Shown: positions 7,649-16,436 of the stretch, piece after piece
Layout: the number at the start of each line of letters is the position of its first letter
How positions within the stretch are numbered: position 1 is the stretch's first letter
Origin: Clostridia bacterium
GTDB lineage: Bacteria; Bacillota; Clostridia; Christensenellales; Aristaeellaceae
NCBI GenBank assembly: GCA_017512805.1
Contig: JAFWES010000050.1
Span: forward strand, 1 to 55,138
Length of the DNA stretch: 55,138 nt
Reading direction: 5' to 3'
Notes under the pieces: model-generated
Told to the model about the DNA's origin: nothing
Database searches by the model: none
Seen by the model: the letters and a program-made list of their open reading frames with translations, nothing else
Translations under genes and position numbers: made by a program

Positions 7649-7677
7649 TTTACGTTGCGGCATAATTGTGCTACAAT
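7649..7677 (+). promoter_or_regulatory. promoter of the toxin-antitoxin operon
   Basis: TTTACG at 7649-7654 and TACAAT at 7672-7677 are separated by 17 bp, 21 bp before the antitoxin start at 7699. Confidence 0.55.
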
Positions 7678-7698
7678 CGTGTCATGAAAGGAGGCTCT

Positions 7699-7974
7699 AT
7701 GATTATGCCTACGATTATGCCAATCAGAGACTTAAGAAATACCAGTGAAATATCTGAAATAGCACACAAAATGCAGGAACCTATTTTCATAACAAAAAAT
7801 GGATACAGTGATCTTGTTGTTATGAGTGCTGAGTTGTATGAACGTTTCGCTCAAATCAATCGAATCGATCAAGCAATCTATGAGGCTGAAGCTGAGGTTG
7901 CAGAAGGCGCTACTCCTGTTTCTCTGAATGATGCGAAATCCAGATTGGACGAAAGGTACTATGGAAAAGTATAA
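7699..7974 (+). CDS. Phd/YefM family antitoxin
   Basis: The 91-residue protein begins at ATG 7699, four bases after AAAGGAGG. Its N-terminal part (IMPIRDLRNTSEISEIAHK, then PIFITKNGYSDLVVMSAELYERF) is the typical Phd/YefM DNA-binding fold, with the I-x-x-x-R-x-x-x segment and the 'ITKNGYSDLVVMS' strand. The C-terminal part is acidic and would wrap the toxin. The gene overlaps the toxin gene by 14 bp. Family knowledge: the antitoxin neutralises the toxin and represses the shared promoter. This region is more AT-rich than the neighbouring metabolic genes, which fits acquisition by transfer. Confidence 0.9.
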   Translation: MIMPTIMPIRDLRNTSEISEIAHKMQEPIFITKNGYSDLVVMSAELYERFAQINRIDQAIYEAEAEVAEGATPVSLNDAKSRLDERYYGKV

Positions 7975-8263
7975 GGTTATGCTGTATCCCAGAGCCTTTC
8001 GGGATATTGACAGCATCTATGCGTATATTGCCCTGGAAAAGCTTGCTCCGGAAAATGCAAAGAGCCAGACAGACAGAATTTGGGCTGCGCTTGAAACATT
8101 GGATTCTTTTCCGTCTGCGCATCAGGACCGTCAGGTTGGAAAATATGCCGGAAGAGGATATAAGCAATTGCTGATTGACAATTATGTAGCGATATTTAAG
8201 ATTGATGAACAGAACAAAACTGTGTATATTGTCACGGTTCAGTATCAGGGAAGGAATATTTAA
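7961..8263 (+). CDS. RelE/ParE family toxin
   Basis: ATG 7961 follows GAAAGG and gives a 100-residue protein overlapping the antitoxin by 14 bp. The sequence MLYPRAFRDIDSIYAYIAL, the centre DSFPSAHQDRQVGKYAGRGYKQLLIDNYVAIF (residue run split: DSFPSAHQD then RGYKQLLIDNY) and the final VYIVTVQYQGRNI match the RelE/ParE superfamily order of helix pair, R-x-L/Y-x-x-x-x-Y-x-V-x-F strand and C-terminal strand. Such toxins either cleave mRNA on the ribosome or inhibit gyrase. The sequence does not settle which, since the usual diagnostic C-terminal residues are not clear. Confidence 0.88.
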   Translation: MEKYKVMLYPRAFRDIDSIYAYIALEKLAPENAKSQTDRIWAALETLDSFPSAHQDRQVGKYAGRGYKQLLIDNYVAIFKIDEQNKTVYIVTVQYQGRNI

Positions 8264-8422: not shown

Positions 8423-9052
8423 TCATTCATGGCCGGCCAGCCAGTCCGCGTCGATGAGGACGAAGGAATAAGCCGGGTAGTTTACTGTGAAGGTTTGAGC
8501 TTCAGTGCCCGGGAAACCGTAAATATACTTCACCTGGCTGCCGGTAATCTCCGTGCGGTAATGGTTGTCACCGTATTTGCACCATATTTCAGCTTCTGTA
8601 GGAATGAACCCCGTTTCCCAGGTGAATCGGAAGGCCCTCTCCTCGCCGGAAAAGACCACCTCCACTTCCCGGATGAACTGAAACGGCGTCAGATCGAACT
8701 GGATGTCGCCTTCGGCGTATTCCTCTGAACCGCTTCCGTAAAAAGCCCGGATCGCATACGTTGTATTTGAAAAATCATCATCAAAATCGTTGACGGATAC
8801 GACGGTCGCCATGGAGGCGTTCAGCCCCGATGTCACGGTTTTGACAATCGCGTCATAATAGTATTTTTTGCAGACCTGGATCTTGACCGGTGTGAAATTG
8901 GTGGTCCAGCCGATGGAAAATTCATTGGTTGCAACGGTCAGGGTTCCTGCCGGCTCTGTCGTAAACGCATACTCATCCGCCAGCGCCAGGCCGCTCCACA
9001 GCATGACCAGCAGCGCCGCCGCTACCGCCACGATCCACAGTTTCCGCTTCAT
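8423..9052 (-). CDS. secreted protein of the LuxR signalling locus
   Basis: The 209-residue protein has a signal peptide (MKRKLWIVAVAAALL, cleavage near ALA-DE at residue 25). The mature part is rich in beta strands and aromatic residues, with two similar segments (FTPVKIQVCKKYYYDAIVKT and FIPTEAEIWCKYGDNHYRTE) that suggest two repeats of one Ig-like or beta-sandwich fold, each with one cysteine. Its ATG overlaps the stop codon of the response regulator gene by four bases, so the two are translated together. It may be the output or the sensed partner of this two-component system. No known family is recognised. Confidence 0.8.
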   Translation of the reverse strand: MKRKLWIVAVAAALLVMLWSGLALADEYAFTTEPAGTLTVATNEFSIGWTTNFTPVKIQVCKKYYYDAIVKTVTSGLNASMATVVSVNDFDDDFSNTTYAIRAFYGSGSEEYAEGDIQFDLTPFQFIREVEVVFSGEERAFRFTWETGFIPTEAEIWCKYGDNHYRTEITGSQVKYIYGFPGTEAQTFTVNYPAYSFVLIDADWLAGHE

Positions 9053-9723
9053 GCTCTTTCTCCTCCTTTTCGGGGTCTGTTCCCGGTACGGTCGTCCTCA
9101 TGTACGACCAGCCCGAGGGCCTTGGCGTTCACAGCCAGGTCGATCCGGTTCCTGTAGCCAGTCTTGATCAGCATGTTCTCGATGTGCCGCTTCACGGTGT
9201 GCGGGGAGATGCACAGCTTTTCCGCAATCTCCTCGTTGGTCAGGTTGCGGGTCAGCTCCCGCAGGACCTCCAGCTCCCGCTCGGACATGTCAGTCTTCAC
9301 CGCGTCTCCGAAATCCGGATTAGGCAGACTGTCCGGAAAAACGCGCTCGCCGGCCATGGTGCGGTCCATCACCTCTGTCAGCGGGATATCTGAGTATTCC
9401 TTGAACCAGAAGCTGTCGATCCCCGCTTCCCGGGCCTCGTCGATCCACCGGGCCTCCGCCGTGGAGGTGGTTAGGATGATCTTGACCCCCGGGTTGTTGT
9501 GATGGATGGCTTTCGCGCAGGTGAGGCCGTCCAGCCCGTATTTCATCATCACATCCATGATGACCAGATCCACCGGATGTGCATCGCAGAAGGCGATGGC
9601 CTGCTCCGCGCCCGAGAGGGAAGCAGCCAGCTCATAGCCCCTGCTCATCTGCACCTGGATCTCAAAGAAGCTCCGGGACACGTACTGGTCGTCCACGACG
9701 ACAACGCTTGGTTTTCTTTGCAA
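9049..9723 (-). CDS. NarL/LuxR-type response regulator
   Basis: The start is set at TTG 9723 because GGGAGGTGAT lies four bases upstream; earlier ATG codons lack such a site. The 224-residue protein has a receiver domain (acidic pair DD at 11-12, phospho-acceptor Asp57 in LVIMDVMMKYG, K near 104 in WFKEYSD) and a LuxR helix-turn-helix (SERELEVLRELTRNLTNEEI, then LCISPHTVKRHIENMLIKTG). It follows the two kinase genes on the same strand, but has its own promoter with a palindrome that recurs upstream of a truncated surface gene at 14.6 kb. It probably receives phosphate from the kinase at 9921-11177 and controls both promoters. Confidence 0.93.
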   Translation of the reverse strand: MQRKPSVVVVDDQYVSRSFFEIQVQMSRGYELAASLSGAEQAIAFCDAHPVDLVIMDVMMKYGLDGLTCAKAIHHNNPGVKIILTTSTAEARWIDEAREAGIDSFWFKEYSDIPLTEVMDRTMAGERVFPDSLPNPDFGDAVKTDMSERELEVLRELTRNLTNEEIAEKLCISPHTVKRHIENMLIKTGYRNRIDLAVNAKALGLVVHEDDRTGNRPRKGGERA

Positions 9724-9766: not shown

Positions 9767-9811
9767 ATTATAGGGGACGGGGGACGGCCTGTCATGGGTC
9801 GAACGGCCCAT
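9767..9811 (-). promoter_or_regulatory. promoter and palindromic operator of the response regulator gene
   Basis: On the minus strand a -10 box TATAAT (9767-9772) lies 21 bp downstream of the near-perfect palindrome ATGGGTCGAACGGCCCAT (9794-9811, written on the plus strand). No -35 consensus is present, so the palindrome probably binds an activator, most simply the LuxR-type regulator itself. The same arrangement occurs at 14599-14642. Confidence 0.65.
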
Positions 9812-9838
9812 TTTGGAGGCTATTTTCATTTCTTTGGC

Positions 9839-9885
9839 AAAAAAAGCGCGGCTCCTGCCTGTCGCCATGCGGGAACCGCGTTTTA
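9839..9885. terminator. bidirectional terminator-like hairpin after the kinase genes
   Basis: A stem made of CGCGGCTCCTGC (9847-9858) and GCGGGAACCGCG (9869-9880) is flanked by seven A residues on the left and TTTT on the right. Read on the minus strand it would end transcription of the two kinase genes, which stop at 9921. Confidence 0.65.
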
Positions 9886-9920
9886 TATGCTCCGTGGCTT
9901 TGGATTGGTTTCGGGAAAGA

Positions 9921-11177
9921 TTAATCGGGCCTGTCTGACTGCGGAAGCGCTATCGTGAGGCGGAATTCAGGCGAGGTTTCAACGCGCATGACGCCGTTGC
10001 CGTTTTCTACCAGCGTCCGCAGGGAAAGCAGGCCGCCGGTTTCCCGGATGGGTGCGGCGGGAGGGAGCCCGTTGCTGCGCAGGGTGAAGATATACCCGCC
10101 GTCCCGGCGCCGCGTATCAGCGGTCAGACGGTCGCCGTCCGCGTGTTTAACCGCGTTGGCGGCGCATTCGCGGATGGCAGCCGCCAGCAGCTCCCGGGGC
10201 ATTCCTTCCGTGGGCGGGATGCCGGTCAGCTCTGCCTTCACCCCGATGGCCTGCGCCATGCTGACAGCCTCCGCCAGGGGATCGACAGCGGTATCGTCCC
10301 CCTCGTATTCCCGCAGCAGATAGGTATTGGCGTTCTTCAATGCCTGCAGCAGCAGCTCCTCGTCGATGGAGGCAGGATCGCTCAGAAAATGGCGGCTTTC
10401 CAGCAGCACACTGCCCAGCTCATCGTGCACCGTCATCCGGGCGGTCAGCAGCTCCTGTGCGATGATGAGCCGCTCCGCCTGGCGGTTGTAGATTTCCAGG
10501 CGAAGGCGGATGTCCTTCAGCTTCCGGTTTTTCGCCTCCTGGTCGGCCAGAATCCCGGCCTGCTCCGTGATATCCGTGGCGGTGACCTGACGGAAAGCGC
10601 TGCCCGGCGTCTCCCCGATGCTGATCTGCCATACCCGGTTCTCCACTGACAGCTGCCCGGTCGCGGCTGTCCGGAAAACATGCCAGTCGGTAAGCAGCTT
10701 TCCGGTCAGCGCCACGGACAGATGATCCATCACCAGGTTGCGGAAGCGCACGGTTCCGTCCAGATCCCCAAAGGCGACGCCCACCGGCAGCAGGTCCATG
10801 GCCTGCTTGACGCTGTCCGGCGTGACATGGCTCCGCCGGTAGCGGAAGGTGTCCCGGGCAGCCAAAAACAGGATCATCGCGGTAAAAGCCTCATACGCCC
10901 AAACGGCCCAAACCGGACAGGTACTGAAAGCCGCCAGCCAGGCTGGAAGCGCTTCGGCCCGGCCCGGGAAATTGATCTCCCAGGCGATGACGGAAAAGCA
11001 GAGCCAGAATATACCCGCGCTGAGGAAGCAGAGGAACAGCAGCGCGCATCTGTCACGGAGGCTCCGCCTGTCCCGGAAGGCGGCGATGGTGACCGCCATC
11101 AGCCCGGTCAGCAGCAGGAACAGGATGCCTAGCACAGGCAGCCGGGTGGCGGATAACAGGGCTTCCCGGATCGTCAT
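9921..11177 (-). CDS. membrane sensor histidine kinase
   Basis: The 418-residue protein has about three to four N-terminal membrane helices (residues 10-125), a short PAS-like segment (VAFGDLDGTVRFRNLVMDHL), a coiled coil (residues about 215-245) with a histidine in MTVHDELGSVLLESRHFL, and a GHKL ATPase domain. The ATPase has an N box (IRECAANAVKHADG) and a C-terminal G-rich stretch (RETGGLLSLRTLVENGNG). The H-D-E-L-G arrangement resembles the H box of DesK/LiaS-type kinases. It overlaps the upstream kinase-like gene by four bases, so the two proteins are made together and may work as a pair. It is the better candidate for the catalytically active member. Confidence 0.85.
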   Translation of the reverse strand: MTIREALLSATRLPVLGILFLLLTGLMAVTIAAFRDRRSLRDRCALLFLCFLSAGIFWLCFSVIAWEINFPGRAEALPAWLAAFSTCPVWAVWAYEAFTAMILFLAARDTFRYRRSHVTPDSVKQAMDLLPVGVAFGDLDGTVRFRNLVMDHLSVALTGKLLTDWHVFRTAATGQLSVENRVWQISIGETPGSAFRQVTATDITEQAGILADQEAKNRKLKDIRLRLEIYNRQAERLIIAQELLTARMTVHDELGSVLLESRHFLSDPASIDEELLLQALKNANTYLLREYEGDDTAVDPLAEAVSMAQAIGVKAELTGIPPTEGMPRELLAAAIRECAANAVKHADGDRLTADTRRRDGGYIFTLRSNGLPPAAPIRETGGLLSLRTLVENGNGVMRVETSPEFRLTIALPQSDRPD

Positions 11178-12829
11178 GCCTCCTCACCGCCCTTCTTTTC
11201 ATCCGTTTCGGCAAGGAGATCCATGTACAGAATACCCTCCTCCTCCCGAATCCGCGCCGGAACAGGAAGTCCGCTCAGGTCTGGAATCTGCGCTGTCTCT
11301 GTCGCCAGAACGAGCGCATCGCCCTGCCAGGAGAGCATCAGGGACAGGGCTTTGCCCATCAGTGCATCCGCCACGTCTTCGAAGGCGTCATAGAGGGCGA
11401 TCACCGTGGCGGCAGGCAGCGGCCGCTCCGCCTCCGGCGGCAGCGCCTCGGTGTGCAGTCCGGCCAGAGACAGATAGCTCGCGGACTCCTTCAGCGCCAG
11501 AAACAGCGTCTGGGTGGTCAGGCTCTCCTGCTCCGCCGCCAGCAGGAGAAGGTTGGTCTTCCGCTTGACGTAGGCATTCAGCACCGACACCCGGGCCAGC
11601 TGCTCCCGGAAGGCCGGTGTATTCGGTTCCATCTGTCCCAGCAGCCGTTCGATGCGCTGCTGGCAGGGATACATGATCTCCGCGATCTCGTGATAAATGC
11701 GGTGCCGGGACTGCAGCCAGGCGTCCTTCTCCCGCTGCTCCGTCTCGGCCCGGATCAGGCTGTTCTCCGATTCGATGAGCTCATTGGCCTCCGCCAGACG
11801 CTCCTGGGCCCGGTGTACCTCGGTCTCGTCCTCCGCCCAGAAGGCATAACCGCCGCGCACCTTTCGCCCGGAAAGCTTCAGATCCGGCGTCAGGTATACC
11901 GGAGAAACGAGTGCCGCCCGAAGCTGTTCCGTCTCCGCCGCGAGCGCGCAGCCGGAGCGGTAAACAGGCTGAAACGCCCCGTCCGTCACCTGCGCCGGCG
12001 TCTGCAGCATCCGGAAGAAACCCGGATAGTCCCCGTTGTGCGGGATCATCCGGCAGCGGATGCAGACTTCAAATACGCCCAGCATACCAAAAATGTGGAT
12101 CTCCGGGTTGTTGTACATGCGCGGAAGAAGGGTGCCATCAATCACCAGCGCGAAAAATGCCAGAAGGCCGGACCACAGCGTCACCTCAACGGCCAGGAAG
12201 GAAATCGCTTTCCGGTAGCGCAATCCCGCTTCCCGGAACAGCAGCACAAGACCCGCGGCAAAGCTCAGGATCATCCAGGCGTACAGCGCGTAGAAAACCG
12301 GGCCCTGCGCGTACGTGCCGGAATCAACGGCAAAGCTGGATATGTCCGTCTTCGGCACATACACCAGATGATGGAAATCATTTGTCAGCGCAATCAGGGA
12401 AAGCAGGACGGGCGGGATCAGCAGCAGAGCATCCTTCCGGCGCTCCGTCCGGTCTCTTCTTCGGATGCGCAGACAGGTCATCAGGAAAAGCGTGGGGATC
12501 AGCGTCATGGGCACAAAGAACAGATAGACCAGGTATCGCATCACCGCCGGTTCCGTCGCGAAGCGGTACTTGAACACCCGCAGCGTCTGATACAGCAGCA
12601 TCAGCAGTGCCGCGCCGGTGATCCCGTTTTTCGCTCGGGAGGGCAGAAGCCTCGCCCGGACAGACTGGAGCCAGTAAAGCAGCAGACCGATATAGATCAG
12701 ATAATTGCACTCGGCCATCAGAGCGTCCAGCGCCGGGATTCCGGTCCGGGAAAGCGCGTTCGCGACGCCGGCCAGCAGGAAAAAGCCGATGAACAGGTAA
12801 GTATTCCGTTTTGATTCCTGCCGGTCCAT
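11174..12829 (-). CDS. 7TM kinase-like sensor with degenerate ATPase domain
   Basis: ATG 12829 follows GGGGGAGGA and gives 551 residues. Seven membrane helices occupy residues about 10-265, as in the 7TM histidine-kinase N-terminal module. A PAS-like linker (residues about 285-345) and a coiled coil lead to an H-box-like segment (RHRIYHEIAEIMYPCQQRIE). The region that should hold the ATPase lacks a recognisable N box: where 'NA..H' is expected it reads DAFEDVADALMG, and no G box is seen. It therefore looks like a pseudokinase that senses and partners with the kinase encoded directly downstream. Confidence 0.8.
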   Translation of the reverse strand: MDRQESKRNTYLFIGFFLLAGVANALSRTGIPALDALMAECNYLIYIGLLLYWLQSVRARLLPSRAKNGITGAALLMLLYQTLRVFKYRFATEPAVMRYLVYLFFVPMTLIPTLFLMTCLRIRRRDRTERRKDALLLIPPVLLSLIALTNDFHHLVYVPKTDISSFAVDSGTYAQGPVFYALYAWMILSFAAGLVLLFREAGLRYRKAISFLAVEVTLWSGLLAFFALVIDGTLLPRMYNNPEIHIFGMLGVFEVCIRCRMIPHNGDYPGFFRMLQTPAQVTDGAFQPVYRSGCALAAETEQLRAALVSPVYLTPDLKLSGRKVRGGYAFWAEDETEVHRAQERLAEANELIESENSLIRAETEQREKDAWLQSRHRIYHEIAEIMYPCQQRIERLLGQMEPNTPAFREQLARVSVLNAYVKRKTNLLLLAAEQESLTTQTLFLALKESASYLSLAGLHTEALPPEAERPLPAATVIALYDAFEDVADALMGKALSLMLSWQGDALVLATETAQIPDLSGLPVPARIREEEGILYMDLLAETDEKKGGEEA

Positions 12830-12900
12830 CACAGTCCTCCCCCCGCGCTTCACGGTCTCTTTTGCATTGATTCTGCGTATATTCAATCTGGGACAGGATA

Positions 12901-12929
12901 ATTGTACTCATTCATGACAAACGGGTCAA
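12901..12929 (-). promoter_or_regulatory. sigma-A promoter of the kinase genes
   Basis: On the minus strand TTGACC (12924-12929) and TACAAT (12901-12906) are 17 bp apart, about 70 bp before the start of the 7TM gene. Confidence 0.7.
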
Positions 12930-12967
12930 TACATATTTCCCTGCAAATCCTCTGCGGAAAGATGATA

Positions 12968-12996
12968 TTGACGATGCTCTTGAATAGTGATATTGT
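12968..12996 (+). promoter_or_regulatory. sigma-A promoter of the aldo/keto reductase gene
   Basis: TTGACG (12968-12973) and TATTGT (12991-12996) with 17-bp spacing, 76 bp before the TTG start. Confidence 0.6.
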
Positions 12997-13071
12997 CAGA
13001 CTGCAGAAACAAATACGGTTATGGTTTCATCTTCTCAGGGACTATCATATGGACACAGGAGGATAAATAAA

Positions 13072-14214
13072 TTGAAACTGCGGAGACTGGGGAAAACAAA
13101 CCTGCTGGTCAGCGAGGTAGGCTTTGGCGGAGAATGGCTGGAAAGGCACCCGGAGGAGCACTCCGTTCAGCTGATCCGGCACGCGCATGAAAAGGGAATC
13201 AATATCATTGACTGCTGGATGCCGGATCCCAAATCCAGGGATATCATCGGCAAAGCTATCGCGGACTGCAGGGACGAATGGATCGTCCAGGGGCACATCG
13301 GTTCCACCTGGCAGAACGGCCAGTATGTCCGTTCCCGCGACATGAAGGTAGTGGTTCCGGCCTTTGAGGATCTGCTCCAAAGGATCGGCGGCGGATATAT
13401 CGATCTGGGGATGATCCATTACATCGATACCCAGGAGGACTGGGACAACAGCATGAATACCGCCTTTCTCGATTATGTCCGCGAACTGCATGAGAAAGGC
13501 ATCATCCGGCATATCGGCATGAGCACCCATAACCCGCGCCTCGCGAAAAGGGCCGCGAAACTGGATTTCATCGAAATGATCCTGTTCAGCATCAATCCGG
13601 CCTTCGATATGAAGCCGGCCAGCGAGGATCTGATGACCATGTTCGACAACTATGATGAGCAGCTGAAGGGAATCGATCCGGAACGGGAATCCCTGTACCG
13701 CCTGTGTGAAACCAGGGATGTGGGGATCACGGTGATGAAGGGCTTTTTCGGCGGCGCGCTGCTGGACGAGAAGCGTTCTCCCTTCGGAGTGGCCTTTACC
13801 CCGGCGCAGCTGATCCACTATGCCCTGACCCGGCCCGCCGTCTCCTCCATTCTCTGCGGATACGATACGACGGAGCAGGTGGATCAGGCGGTGGCCTACG
13901 AAACAGCGTCCCCGGAGGAACGGGATTATGCCTCCGTGATTGCGTCCGCTCCGCTTCATTCCTATGCGGGACAGTGTACCTATTGCGGCCACTGCCAGCC
14001 CTGTCCCATGGGCATCGACATTGCCATGGTCAATAAGTTTTATGATCTGGCAAAGCAGCAGGAGACCGTTCCCGAAAGCGTGCGGTCTCATTATGAAGGC
14101 CTTGGCGCCACGGCTTCCGCCTGCATCGGCTGCCAGAGCTGCGAGGCGCGCTGCCCCTTCGGCGTGCAGATTGCGAAGCGAATGGCTGACGCAAAAACCC
14201 TTTTCGGTTTCTGA
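13072..14214 (+). CDS. aldo/keto reductase with C-terminal 4Fe-4S dicluster domain
   Basis: TTG 13072 is chosen as start because AGGAGG lies 9 bp upstream; an ATG in between opens only a five-codon frame. The 380-residue protein begins with the aldo/keto reductase barrel (LRRLGKTNLLVSEVGFGGEW; IIDCWMPD; Tyr-containing EDWDNSMN; IGMSTHNP). The C-terminal part holds two cysteine clusters, C-x-x-C-x-x-C-x-x-x-C-P in CTYCGHCQPCPMG and again in CIGCQSCEARCPFG, which bind two 4Fe-4S centres. This fusion is a known family of anaerobes. It probably couples NAD(P)H or ferredoxin electrons to a carbonyl substrate that is not known. It is transcribed alone. Confidence 0.92.
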   Translation: MKLRRLGKTNLLVSEVGFGGEWLERHPEEHSVQLIRHAHEKGINIIDCWMPDPKSRDIIGKAIADCRDEWIVQGHIGSTWQNGQYVRSRDMKVVVPAFEDLLQRIGGGYIDLGMIHYIDTQEDWDNSMNTAFLDYVRELHEKGIIRHIGMSTHNPRLAKRAAKLDFIEMILFSINPAFDMKPASEDLMTMFDNYDEQLKGIDPERESLYRLCETRDVGITVMKGFFGGALLDEKRSPFGVAFTPAQLIHYALTRPAVSSILCGYDTTEQVDQAVAYETASPEERDYASVIASAPLHSYAGQCTYCGHCQPCPMGIDIAMVNKFYDLAKQQETVPESVRSHYEGLGATASACIGCQSCEARCPFGVQIAKRMADAKTLFGF

Positions 14215-14598
14215 GAACTCCATCCCAGCGGGCACAGAAGAAGCGCCTTCGAGGAGACGAGAATCAGAAAACAGGCCTATGAAAAAACTGTAAACCGTCT
14301 TGCCTTCACAAATCCTGTTCTTTCAGGCGGATATCATATCCCAGACAGCTGAGTGCGTATTCGGCTGTCACTTTTTCTTTGCCCTTGCATCCTGGAGGCC
14401 CCCCGCTGCGTTCCCGTGGAAGAAATCACCGAAACCATGTCCCGCACCCCGCCCTGGGCTCCCAGTCTGGAACTTCGCGCCGAAGGCAGCGAGCTGGATT
14501 TCTATTGCAAAAGCTGATCAGGGCTCATGTCTTCTCCCATCGTTCCATAACCATGACGGATGTTTTTTTTTTGAAAAAAACGGCTTTATTCCAAAAAA
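14215..14598. other. intergenic stretch with no recognisable gene
   Basis: About 380 bases. Open frames are present, one ending in LELRAEGSELDFYCKS, which could be the end of a lost enzyme gene, but no family is recognised and no ribosome binding site is seen. Confidence 0.4.
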
Positions 14599-14642
14599 AT
14601 GGGCCGAACGGCCCATGGCAGGCATGGCGATTTCTGTATAAT
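14599..14642 (+). promoter_or_regulatory. palindromic operator and -10 box matching the response regulator promoter
   Basis: The palindrome ATGGGCCGAACGGCCCAT (14599-14616) is followed after 20 bp by TATAAT (14637-14642), with no -35 consensus. The palindrome and spacing match those upstream of the LuxR-type gene (9767-9811), where one base differs in the palindrome and the gap is 21 bp. The bases right after the palindrome (GGCAGGC here, GACAGGC there) are also shared. Confidence 0.65.
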
Positions 14643-14771: not shown

Positions 14772-14927
14772 ATGAAGCGGAAACTGTGGATCATCCTGGC
14801 GCTGGCTGCGCTGCTGGCGGCGCTGTGCTGCGGCACGGCCCTGGCGGGCAGAATCGGCAATCTGAACCACGATATCAGCTGGGCTCTTTCGGATACCGGC
14901 GTACTGACCATGCGGATCGCGGCATAA
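14772..14927 (+). pseudogene. truncated surface or secreted protein gene
   Basis: A GGAGG site precedes ATG 14772. The first 25 residues (MKRKLWIILALAALL to ALA) form a signal peptide very like that of the secreted protein at 8423-9052. Then follows ISWALSDTGVLTM, which resembles the repeated 'LTW.L...G.LTISG' element of Clostridia surface proteins that carry leucine-rich repeats. The frame stops after 51 codons and a terminator follows at once, so most of the gene seems lost. It could still produce a short secreted peptide. It sits under the shared operator promoter. Confidence 0.65.
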
Positions 14928-14942
14928 GGGCCCGGAAACACG

Positions 14943-14979
14943 AACTCCCACGGGGTAATGCGCCTCGTGGGAGTTTTTT
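14943..14979 (+). terminator. rho-independent terminator
   Basis: Perfect 10-bp stem AACTCCCACG / CGTGGGAGTT with a 13-base loop, followed by a run of T residues. Confidence 0.85.
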
Positions 14980-14982
14980 GTG

Positions 14983-15948
14983 TTACGCTTCTTTTCTTCG
15001 TGTAAGGAACATCTGCCAGGCGATGGTAAGCAAAGCATAAATGGCAAGTGCTGCCAAAAGTATGCTGAGGAGATCCCGATCCATAAAGAAGCTTGTGGTC
15101 TTCATTCCTTTCAAAAGAAGATGCGACAGAATGTAAGAAACTGGTGCAAAGAATAGTTGGCGCAGAATCCAACTATATGTCCAATTCCTCAGAATTCCCC
15201 AAGTCAGTCCGCATACTCCGGCTGCTACAAGTGCAATCATAAGATAATAGGCCAGCGCAAGACGCGGAAGGATTTCCACACCACCTTTCATTGGCGTGCC
15301 CCACAGTAATGTTTGTGGTTGCTCAAGCCCATAGATCAGGCGATCAGGTACGGGGAAGATGGTTGATTCATAATATGACTGAGCAAGATTATCAGAATGC
15401 TGGTTTGTACTTAAAGCCTGAATAAACAAGGTATGTGTGCCGTCATCATCAACCACAATGTGTTCTTGAAATCCATTAACGATGCTGTTCACGTTAAGAA
15501 CAAGACCCTCGTCTGTATGTTTAGCAGTATAAGGCGCTGTTGTTGGCGAGAGAGCAACGGATTCGCTGGTTTCAGTATCACGCTCATCAACGACCACATC
15601 TTCAGGTTGGGACGTTTTTACTCCGACAATCTCAATTAATCCGTCCTGCCAAGGTACCAACTGAATAGCCATTGTGCGGAAAAAATAGGTATAAACTCCA
15701 ACGAAGACGATCAGCGCTGCCAGTGCAGCGGCGTAAAGGCGCTTTTTTCGTATCTGTCTCTTCAAATTCTGAAGCGGTTTTACGGTATCAACAGGATTCT
15801 CTGCTGGAACGTTCATCTCAGAGAGTTTTGCCCGGCAATCAGCGCACTCATCCAGATGTTCTTCAATCAGAACCCTGGTTTCCTGCTCGACCATGTTTTC
15901 CGCGTACAGCGGCAGCAAATCACGTGTAACGGCACAGGGCAGTTTCAT
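14983..15948 (-). CDS. membrane anti-sigma factor with zinc finger
   Basis: The chosen ATG 15948 lies seven bases after GGAGG, giving 321 residues. The N-terminus is the anti-sigma zinc finger (CAVTRDLLPLYAENM, then HLDECADC, a H-x-x-x-C-x-x-C ligand set). One membrane helix follows near residues 70-90 (LYAAALAALIVFVGVYTYFF), then an outer domain of about 120 residues and three to four further helices in the C-terminal third. It starts two bases after the sigma gene stop. Family knowledge: it holds the ECF sigma factor inactive at the membrane until a signal releases it. The signal is unknown. Confidence 0.88.
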   Translation of the reverse strand: MKLPCAVTRDLLPLYAENMVEQETRVLIEEHLDECADCRAKLSEMNVPAENPVDTVKPLQNLKRQIRKKRLYAAALAALIVFVGVYTYFFRTMAIQLVPWQDGLIEIVGVKTSQPEDVVVDERDTETSESVALSPTTAPYTAKHTDEGLVLNVNSIVNGFQEHIVVDDDGTHTLFIQALSTNQHSDNLAQSYYESTIFPVPDRLIYGLEQPQTLLWGTPMKGGVEILPRLALAYYLMIALVAAGVCGLTWGILRNWTYSWILRQLFFAPVSYILSHLLLKGMKTTSFFMDRDLLSILLAALAIYALLTIAWQMFLTRRKEA

Positions 15949-15950
15949 GA

Positions 15951-16436
15951 TCATTCCTCCATTTTCTCTTTAATCTTGGTACGCGCTCTATGAAAGACTA
16001 CGCACGCCCAGTTTTCCGATTTGCCGAAGAGCTCTCCGATATCCCTGAAGCTTAGTTGACCTAAAGTTCGGAGTGTGAATACCTCCCGATAGGGCTCGTC
16101 CAAGTGATGGAGCAGTCGATGGATGCGCATGCTTTCATCCTGACGCACAATCGCTTCTTCCGGCCCGATGGACGGGTCTTGAAGCGGTAGCGCGTCATCA
16201 ATCGGCTGATTCTTCCTTATCCGTTGCTCTGAAAGCCATAGATTTTTGGCAATGGCACAGAGCCAGCTTTTCAGGCTGCTCTTTCCCTGAAACTGATCCA
16301 GAGTTCGCATTGCCTTAAAGAAGGTTTCCTGGGCGATCTCTTCAGCAGTTTGCGGATTTCCGGAGAGTGAGAGCGCATAACGATAAACCGAGTCGAAGTA
16401 GTCTTGATAGATCTGATCAAAAGAACCAGGCTGCAT
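15951..16436 (-). CDS. ECF sigma factor
   Basis: The 161-residue protein has sigma region 2 (FDQIYQDYFDSVYRYALSLS, then AEEIAQETFFKAMRTLDQF and SSLKSWLCAIAKNLW) and region 4 (LDEPYREVFTLRTLGQLSF, then RDIGELFGKSENWACVVFHR). Length is normal for the ECF class. The start at 16436 follows GGGGG. It is the first gene of the sigma/anti-sigma operon. A typical ECF promoter lies upstream, so the sigma factor probably drives its own transcription. Confidence 0.93.
   Translation of the reverse strand: MQPGSFDQIYQDYFDSVYRYALSLSGNPQTAEEIAQETFFKAMRTLDQFQGKSSLKSWLCAIAKNLWLSEQRIRKNQPIDDALPLQDPSIGPEEAIVRQDESMRIHRLLHHLDEPYREVFTLRTLGQLSFRDIGELFGKSENWACVVFHRARTKIKEKMEE

Follow-up and report, generated by a model that had tools for sequence, protein, structure and literature searches.

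Why does the same 18-bp palindrome stand before a response-regulator operon and before a truncated surface-protein gene in one stretch of DNA? This stretch, hereafter the window, comprises 55,138 nucleotides (positions 1 to 55,138 of contig JAFWES010000050.1, assembly GCA_017512805.1, Clostridia bacterium), and the original prediction proposed that a kinase pair and a LuxR-type regulator encoded there control surface or secreted proteins through the palindrome. The proposal is supported here by the non-random occurrence of the sites, their conservation and their covariation with the recognition helix of the regulator, with a regulon smaller than claimed. In the reading that we regard as probable, a self-contained two-component system drives both itself and surface proteins through an operator of two inverted heptamers 2 bases apart (7-2-7), in a class-II arrangement, and its paralogs carry matched variants of helix and operator. 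By docking at this palindrome, a single sensor system seems to govern which surface protein is made.

Two operator-promoter pairs in the window

The architecture of the system, its operator, the fixed spacing and the helix covariation described below are read from the sequence itself. The two palindromes, ATGGGTCGAACGGCCCAT at 9794-9811 and ATGGGCCGAACGGCCCAT at 14599-14616, differ by a single base. When the window was scanned at ≤3 mismatches, 4 strand matches were obtained for 0.22 expected, and 0/100 shuffles gave at least 4. The TATAAT element follows after 21 bp in the regulator promoter (minus strand) and after 20 bp at the 14599 site (plus strand), as had been announced, and the flanks, described as similar, share CCAAAA on the 5' side and GRCAGGC on the 3' side. 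Both downstream secreted products, of 209 and 51 aa, indeed start with MKRKLWI. One statement of the original prediction was wrong, namely that both promoters are devoid of a -35 box. The promoter of the response-regulator operon (9767..9795, minus strand) reads ATGACA-17-TATAAT, i.e., 11/12 consensus bases and the top match of the scanned region, and that of the truncated surface-protein gene (14615..14642, plus strand) reads ATGGCA-16-TATAAT (10/12); promoters without a -35 box were rejected on these matches. Both -35 hexamers overlap the final bases of their palindrome.

The operator of the response-regulator promoter (9794..9811, minus strand) is a 7-2-7 inverted repeat, ATGGGCCG-TT-CGACCCAT on the minus strand, whose position is kept in relatives and whose centre lies at about -42.5 for a transcription start assumed 7 nt 3' of the -10. 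Written as TGGGCCG-NN-CGGCCCA, it has the inverted-repeat form of NarL/FixJ sites. The second copy of the operator (14599..14616, plus strand), identified by motif search and alignment, lies within a duplicated promoter.

Genes of the sensor system

The response regulator (9049..9723, minus strand; 224 aa) is of the NarL/FixJ type and starts with a TTG codon at 9723, after GGAGGTG. Its receiver domain was recognized by Pfam Response_reg (61.2 bits, 1.2e-16), with an invariant phospho-acceptor D58 (12/12), and its C-terminal helix-turn-helix (HTH) by GerE (53.7 bits for a cut-off of 23.5, 1.6e-14); the HTH chains of NarL, VraR and DevR also match. The start of the following gene overlaps the regulator stop by 4 nt; it encodes a secreted protein of 209 aa (MKRKLWIVAVAAALL...; 8423..9052, minus strand) that has no family match.

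Two histidine kinases, HK2 and HK1, are encoded on the same strand. HK2 (9921..11177, minus strand; 418 aa) carries an HDELG motif, an N box and a G box, and is a candidate catalytic kinase, which we take to be of the NarX/DesK type from its H box. Residues H252, N342 and G382-G383 are kept in 63/63 aligned relatives; the HATPase_c profile gave 15.5 bits for a cut-off of 26.4, with 14.5-25.3 bits in 4/5 relatives and no match in 1/5. HK1 (11174..12829, minus strand; 551 aa) is a seven-transmembrane (7TM) sensor of the HisKA_7TM family (57.2 bits, cut-off 28.6), and 4/4 relatives also score above the cut-off. Its ATPase domain is not recognizable, no match to an HATPase domain being obtained in 5/5 scanned proteins, and the phospho-acceptor histidine is present in 40/57 sequences only. 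Hence, HK1 is read as a pseudokinase, the probable sensing partner of HK2.

Conservation of the operator in related loci

Loci were collected by scanning genome contigs with aligned regulators, which yielded 79 loci from 537 confirmed relatives. Most of these, according to their titles, are metagenome-assembled genomes (MAGs) obtained from the gut of ruminants; their labels include Clostridia, Christensenella and Lachnospiraceae. HK1 and HK2 both lie upstream on the regulator strand, HK1 first, in 48/58 loci with at least 4 kb upstream. By a loose signal-peptide rule, a secreted protein follows the regulator in 58/75 loci vs 192/496 control stretches, a weak test in place of which the site-based count below is relied on; the 4-nt overlap of the window recurs in 11 of these 58 loci. 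Among ten such proteins submitted to a family scan, eight matched very diverse families (BspA repeats, Listeria-Bacteroides repeats, Ig, SLH, PKD) and two matched none.

Most loci share one operator plan, i.e., an A-run, a half-site ATGGnnC or a variant of it, and a -10 located 40-41 bp after AATGG. Searching for AAATGG followed by GCC, TTC, CTC or TAC, with at least 5/6 bases of TATAAT at 40-43, returned 84 sites in the 79 loci vs a mean of 0.4 over five base-shuffles. When the last base was widened, 86 sites were found in 60 loci, row L022 (a 47-aa protein ending with its contig) being doubtful. The gene downstream of the site was the regulator in 50 cases, HK1 in 7 and a signal-peptide protein in 27; in the other 2, nothing was recognized. 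For comparison, 300 random positions in the 79 loci fell before nothing recognized in 245 cases, a signal-peptide protein in 21 and a system gene in 34. Altogether, 74/79 loci have a site (60 by the pattern, 9 in a TAGTCC-like class and 5 by a wider look). The expectation that the palindrome is conserved in relatives keeping the regulator is therefore borne out, in a form that varies with the recognition helix.

The distance between AATGG and the -10 is 40 or 41 in 51/54 regulator promoters, and a free search over spacings of 28-55 returned 40 or 41 in 49/50 sites. The system as such is patchy, as indicated by the regulator being found at E 1e-30 in 11/45 genomes of the genus, own genome included, and by the exact motif ATGGGNCGNNCGNCCCAT occurring in 2/99 other relatives. 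In both, it stands in the promoter of a regulator ortholog (86% and 80% identical); in the remaining 97/99 relatives searched, this exact group-A motif was not found.

Covariation of the recognition helix and the half-site

The recognition helix follows the pattern T-V-K/R-y-H-I-z-N. Wherever a site was detected, regulators with y=R and z=E (R+E) had ATGGGCC (23/23 rows), those with y=R and z=Q (R+Q) had ATGGTTC, ATGGCTC or ATGGTAC (34/34), and those in which y is not R had TAGTCC, TAATCC or TGTCC (10/10), the TAATCC and TGTCC forms having joined the pattern after the loci were viewed. These counts become 21, 32 and 9 once the duplicate rows are removed (L006/L027, L009/L042, L010/L094, L012/L096 and L013/L099). 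A further 7 R+E and 15 R+Q rows had no detected site, many of which were found by the wider look. In a tree built with the helix masked, the switches on supported branches went in the same direction in 3/3 cases for E/Q and 2/2 for R/non-R. Three of three held-out regulators also behaved as predicted; all were R+Q with ATGGTAC, although in one case the -10 matched at 4/6 bases only. Across these sequences, the operator tracks two recognition-helix residues. In NarL numbering, y and z would correspond to the base-contacting V189 and K192 (of the contact positions K188, V189 and K192); a search of open-access full text showed no paper giving these positions.

Sites and paralogs in the same genome

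In the 3.07-Mb genome from which the window derives (assembly 87.8% complete), ATGGGNCGNNCGNCCCAT is found at 3 places and the reversed control at 0. All three exact sites precede a -10 at 20-21 bp, so that they do not fall at random, as the search proposed in the original prediction might have revealed. At ≤2 mismatches, the motif is not above the control (11 vs 18 for the reversed sequence); thus, only near-exact sites count in this genome.

The third site (C32:23732) belongs to the promoter of a gene whose product, a BspA-type surface protein, has 1603 aa and 12 LRR_5 stretches (1156.8 bits, cut-off 27.7). The window segment 14572..14847 (plus strand) is 94% identical (260/276) to the promoter, leader and signal-peptide code of this gene by alignment, and the identity stops after 276 bp, where the window continues with a 51-aa open reading frame (ORF) and a terminator-like hairpin. 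The ORF (14772..14927, plus strand) resembles, by eye, a signal peptide and the first residues of a BspA-like domain, and a family profile scan found no match, LRR_5 repeats included. The hairpin (14942..14976, plus strand; sequence scan), with a 15-pair stem, would end the transcription unit of the remnant. From its alignment, the segment 14572-14847 is best described as a decayed, partial duplicate of the C32 promoter region. Given 276 bp at 94% identity, the 14599 site is taken as a duplicate of the C32 promoter, and its treatment as an independent site was rejected.

A paralogous regulator on contig C7, with the helix TVRNHIQH, has ATAGTCCGACCGGACTAT in its own promoter (an ATAGTCC operator). 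At ≤2 mismatches this sequence occurs at exactly two places in the genome (control 0), the second one being before another BspA-type gene that adjoins the 1603-aa gene on C32 and carries 9 LRR_5 stretches (531.6 bits on a partial sequence, cut-off 27.7). By their operators, two regulators appear to be wired to two neighboring surface genes. A third regulator paralog (G000:C74:56891) has ATGGGCCGTGTGACCAAT. This sequence has one half-site in common with the window operator, so that insulation may be incomplete and cross-talk between the C74 and window regulators is possible.

A wider scheme can be proposed, to which we give less than an even chance. In this scheme, the split-sensor systems would form an orthogonal family, each set of HK1, HK2 and regulator being insulated by a co-evolved helix and operator and wired to its own adhesin(s); two residues of the helix would largely determine the half-site, and what the 7TM pseudokinase detects may be the state of the very surface protein under its control. 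If true, surface composition would be chosen sensor by sensor.

Proposed mode of action and alternative explanations

We infer phosphotransfer, binding of the regulator and an activating effect. The 7TM pseudokinase HK1 and the catalytic kinase HK2 would sense a signal and phosphorylate the NarL-type regulator, a dimer of which would bind the 7-2-7 operator centred about 42 bp before the start. The bound regulator would then activate transcription of its own gene and, in the same transcript, of the secreted-protein gene, resulting in positive feedback, and in its own genome would also act on the C32 BspA-type promoter and on the truncated copy at 14599. In the paralogous systems, altered helices and matching operators would wire each regulator to its own surface protein(s). 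The activating effect is suggested by the spacing, since a distance of 40 or 41 in 51/54 promoters points to contact with RNA polymerase and thereby to activation and positive feedback.

Several points weigh against this reading. The transcription start is assumed, and the group-A promoters have a fairly good -35 (mean 4.55/6 vs 2.33 shuffled, ATGACA being typical), so that they might fire unaided and be repressed. The independent switches of helix and operator are few (p 0.25 for E/Q and 0.5 for R/non-R), and neither is significant alone. Five of the 79 loci had no site after the wider look (in one, the available upstream sequence was limited to 99 bp), and the loci in which sites were counted had also served to refine the patterns. 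Finally, 16 more distant regulators, 34-46% identical to that of the window, showed no convincing site of the expected form; four of them gave loose-scan matches only, at 445-893 bp upstream. Upstream of two distant regulators (L174 and L176, helices TVKTHILH and TVKSHIQH), another 18-bp dyad, of the ATCAGCC type, was seen by eye behind an A-run.

Among the alternatives, repression survives best, although we hold it to be unlikely. The regulator would cover the -35 and keep its own promoter and those of the surface proteins silent until released by the kinases, which would fit the overlap of the operator with the -35 hexamer, the 11/12 consensus of the window regulator promoter and the typical ATGACA of group A. 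However, a repressor has no need of a fixed distance between operator and -10. In addition, the -35 is poor in the TTC/CTC (3.06/6) and TAC (3.18/6) groups, for 2.4 in shuffled sequences, and the promoters of these groups look activator-dependent.

It is far less probable that the palindrome acts as an RNA hairpin, in a terminator or a leader structure, and is no protein operator. The minus strand from 14616 to 14599 is followed by a T run and scored terminator-like, but the palindrome lies upstream of the promoter that accompanies it and covaries with the recognition helix; moreover, position and spacing are kept even in the TTC and TAC groups, whose second half has lost its perfect complementarity (ATGGTTC...GGGTGATG). 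Equally improbable is that recombination has carried a promoter cassette from one surface-protein gene to another and that the palindrome has no regulatory meaning, as the near-identity of the 14599 and C32 promoters and of the modules L054, L056 and L060 before different secreted proteins could suggest, whereas operators with differing flanks keep one spacing in dozens of species and operators differ between paralogs of one genome.

Size of the predicted regulon

Genome-wide scans bear on the extent of the proposed control. In 22 genomes with group-A regulators (two of which, G102 and G106, are G031 and G050 of the earlier set of relatives), 21 sites were found at ≤1 mismatch for 0 in the control, 18/22 genomes having one or two. 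Nineteen of these sites were read (all but G105:C2 and G110:C99). Of these, 16 lie in front of the regulator, whereas a secreted protein follows at 2 and a degenerate fragment at 1. At one locus (L161, G101:C7), operator and promoter occur a second time, about 1 kb beyond those of the regulator and ahead of a degenerate stretch similar to the recognition helix; this extra copy is probably a decayed duplicate of the regulator unit.

The TTC/CTC form, AAATGGYTCNNNNGRGTGATG, gave 45 sites in 21/22 Lachnospiraceae-type genomes (control 0), which largely repeat the 84 sites of the 79 loci. Five sites on other contigs were read (L156-L160), 4 of them before a secreted protein and 1 before a further regulator copy. 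The TAC form gave one site in each of 10/16 genomes (control 0), or 8/14 once the duplicates G041/G532 and G007/G531 were removed; five of the genomes had been added without a known regulator of that type. With 0-5 sites per scanned genome, the regulon is tiny and mostly local, and not a broad surface-protein regulon. At L054, L056 and L060, operator and promoter form a module that recurs nearly unchanged in front of different secreted proteins and of additional regulator copies, as though it were being copied.

Relation to known systems

The system resembles NarL/NarP of Escherichia coli in plan. NarL acts as an activator at napF, through a 7-2-7 site at -40 to -49, and at yeaR, through one at -38 to -47 (PMC4549865). 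Shared features are a receiver domain with a LuxR-type HTH, inverted heptamers 2 bases apart and a site near -42 for activation. The window system is set apart by its half-site sequence, and also by its signal, kinases, targets and host lineage. The regulator is not a NarL equivalog (66.8 bits for an NCBIfam NarL cut-off of 250); by its domain content it belongs to the NarL/FixJ class and is predicted to work like it, without being NarL itself.

Among solved structures, VraR is the best match to the regulator (1.3e-17) and DesR also matched (4.8e-14); the HTH entries 4wt0/4wu4, labelled only as response regulator, are presumably LiaR. VraR, LiaR and DesR each work with a single kinase and follow the state of the cell envelope or membrane, whereas the window system has two, one of them degenerate, and surface-protein targets. 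As for these targets, the C32 proteins are of the BspA type, with 12 and 9 LRR_5 stretches; in other species, in contrast, the gene in this position codes for secreted proteins of other kinds (Listeria-Bacteroides repeats, Ig, SLH, PKD).

No description of this system was found in the open-access full-text literature, among the matches listed. Its distinguishing features within the known NarL/FixJ class are the split sensor, the targeting of surface proteins and the pairing of helix variants with operator variants. To our knowledge, little is known of the control of large surface proteins in gut and rumen Clostridia. The present analysis provides a predicted, testable regulon for these organisms, known mostly from MAGs. 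In addition, more than 50 genomes now offer a natural set of NarL-type regulators, each with its matched operator, in which the specificity code (two helix residues vs half-site) is directly testable and which could supply orthogonal regulator-operator pairs.

Neighboring genes

Two further gene pairs lie close to the elements described above. Beside the regulator operon (7666-8263), a type II toxin-antitoxin pair was recognized, in which the gene of a Phd/YefM-type antitoxin (Pfam 33.8 bits) precedes that of a ParE-type toxin (41.0 bits). Just past the truncated surface gene, the minus strand carries two overlapping ORFs (14983-16436) that resemble, by eye, an ECF sigma factor and a membrane anti-sigma factor.

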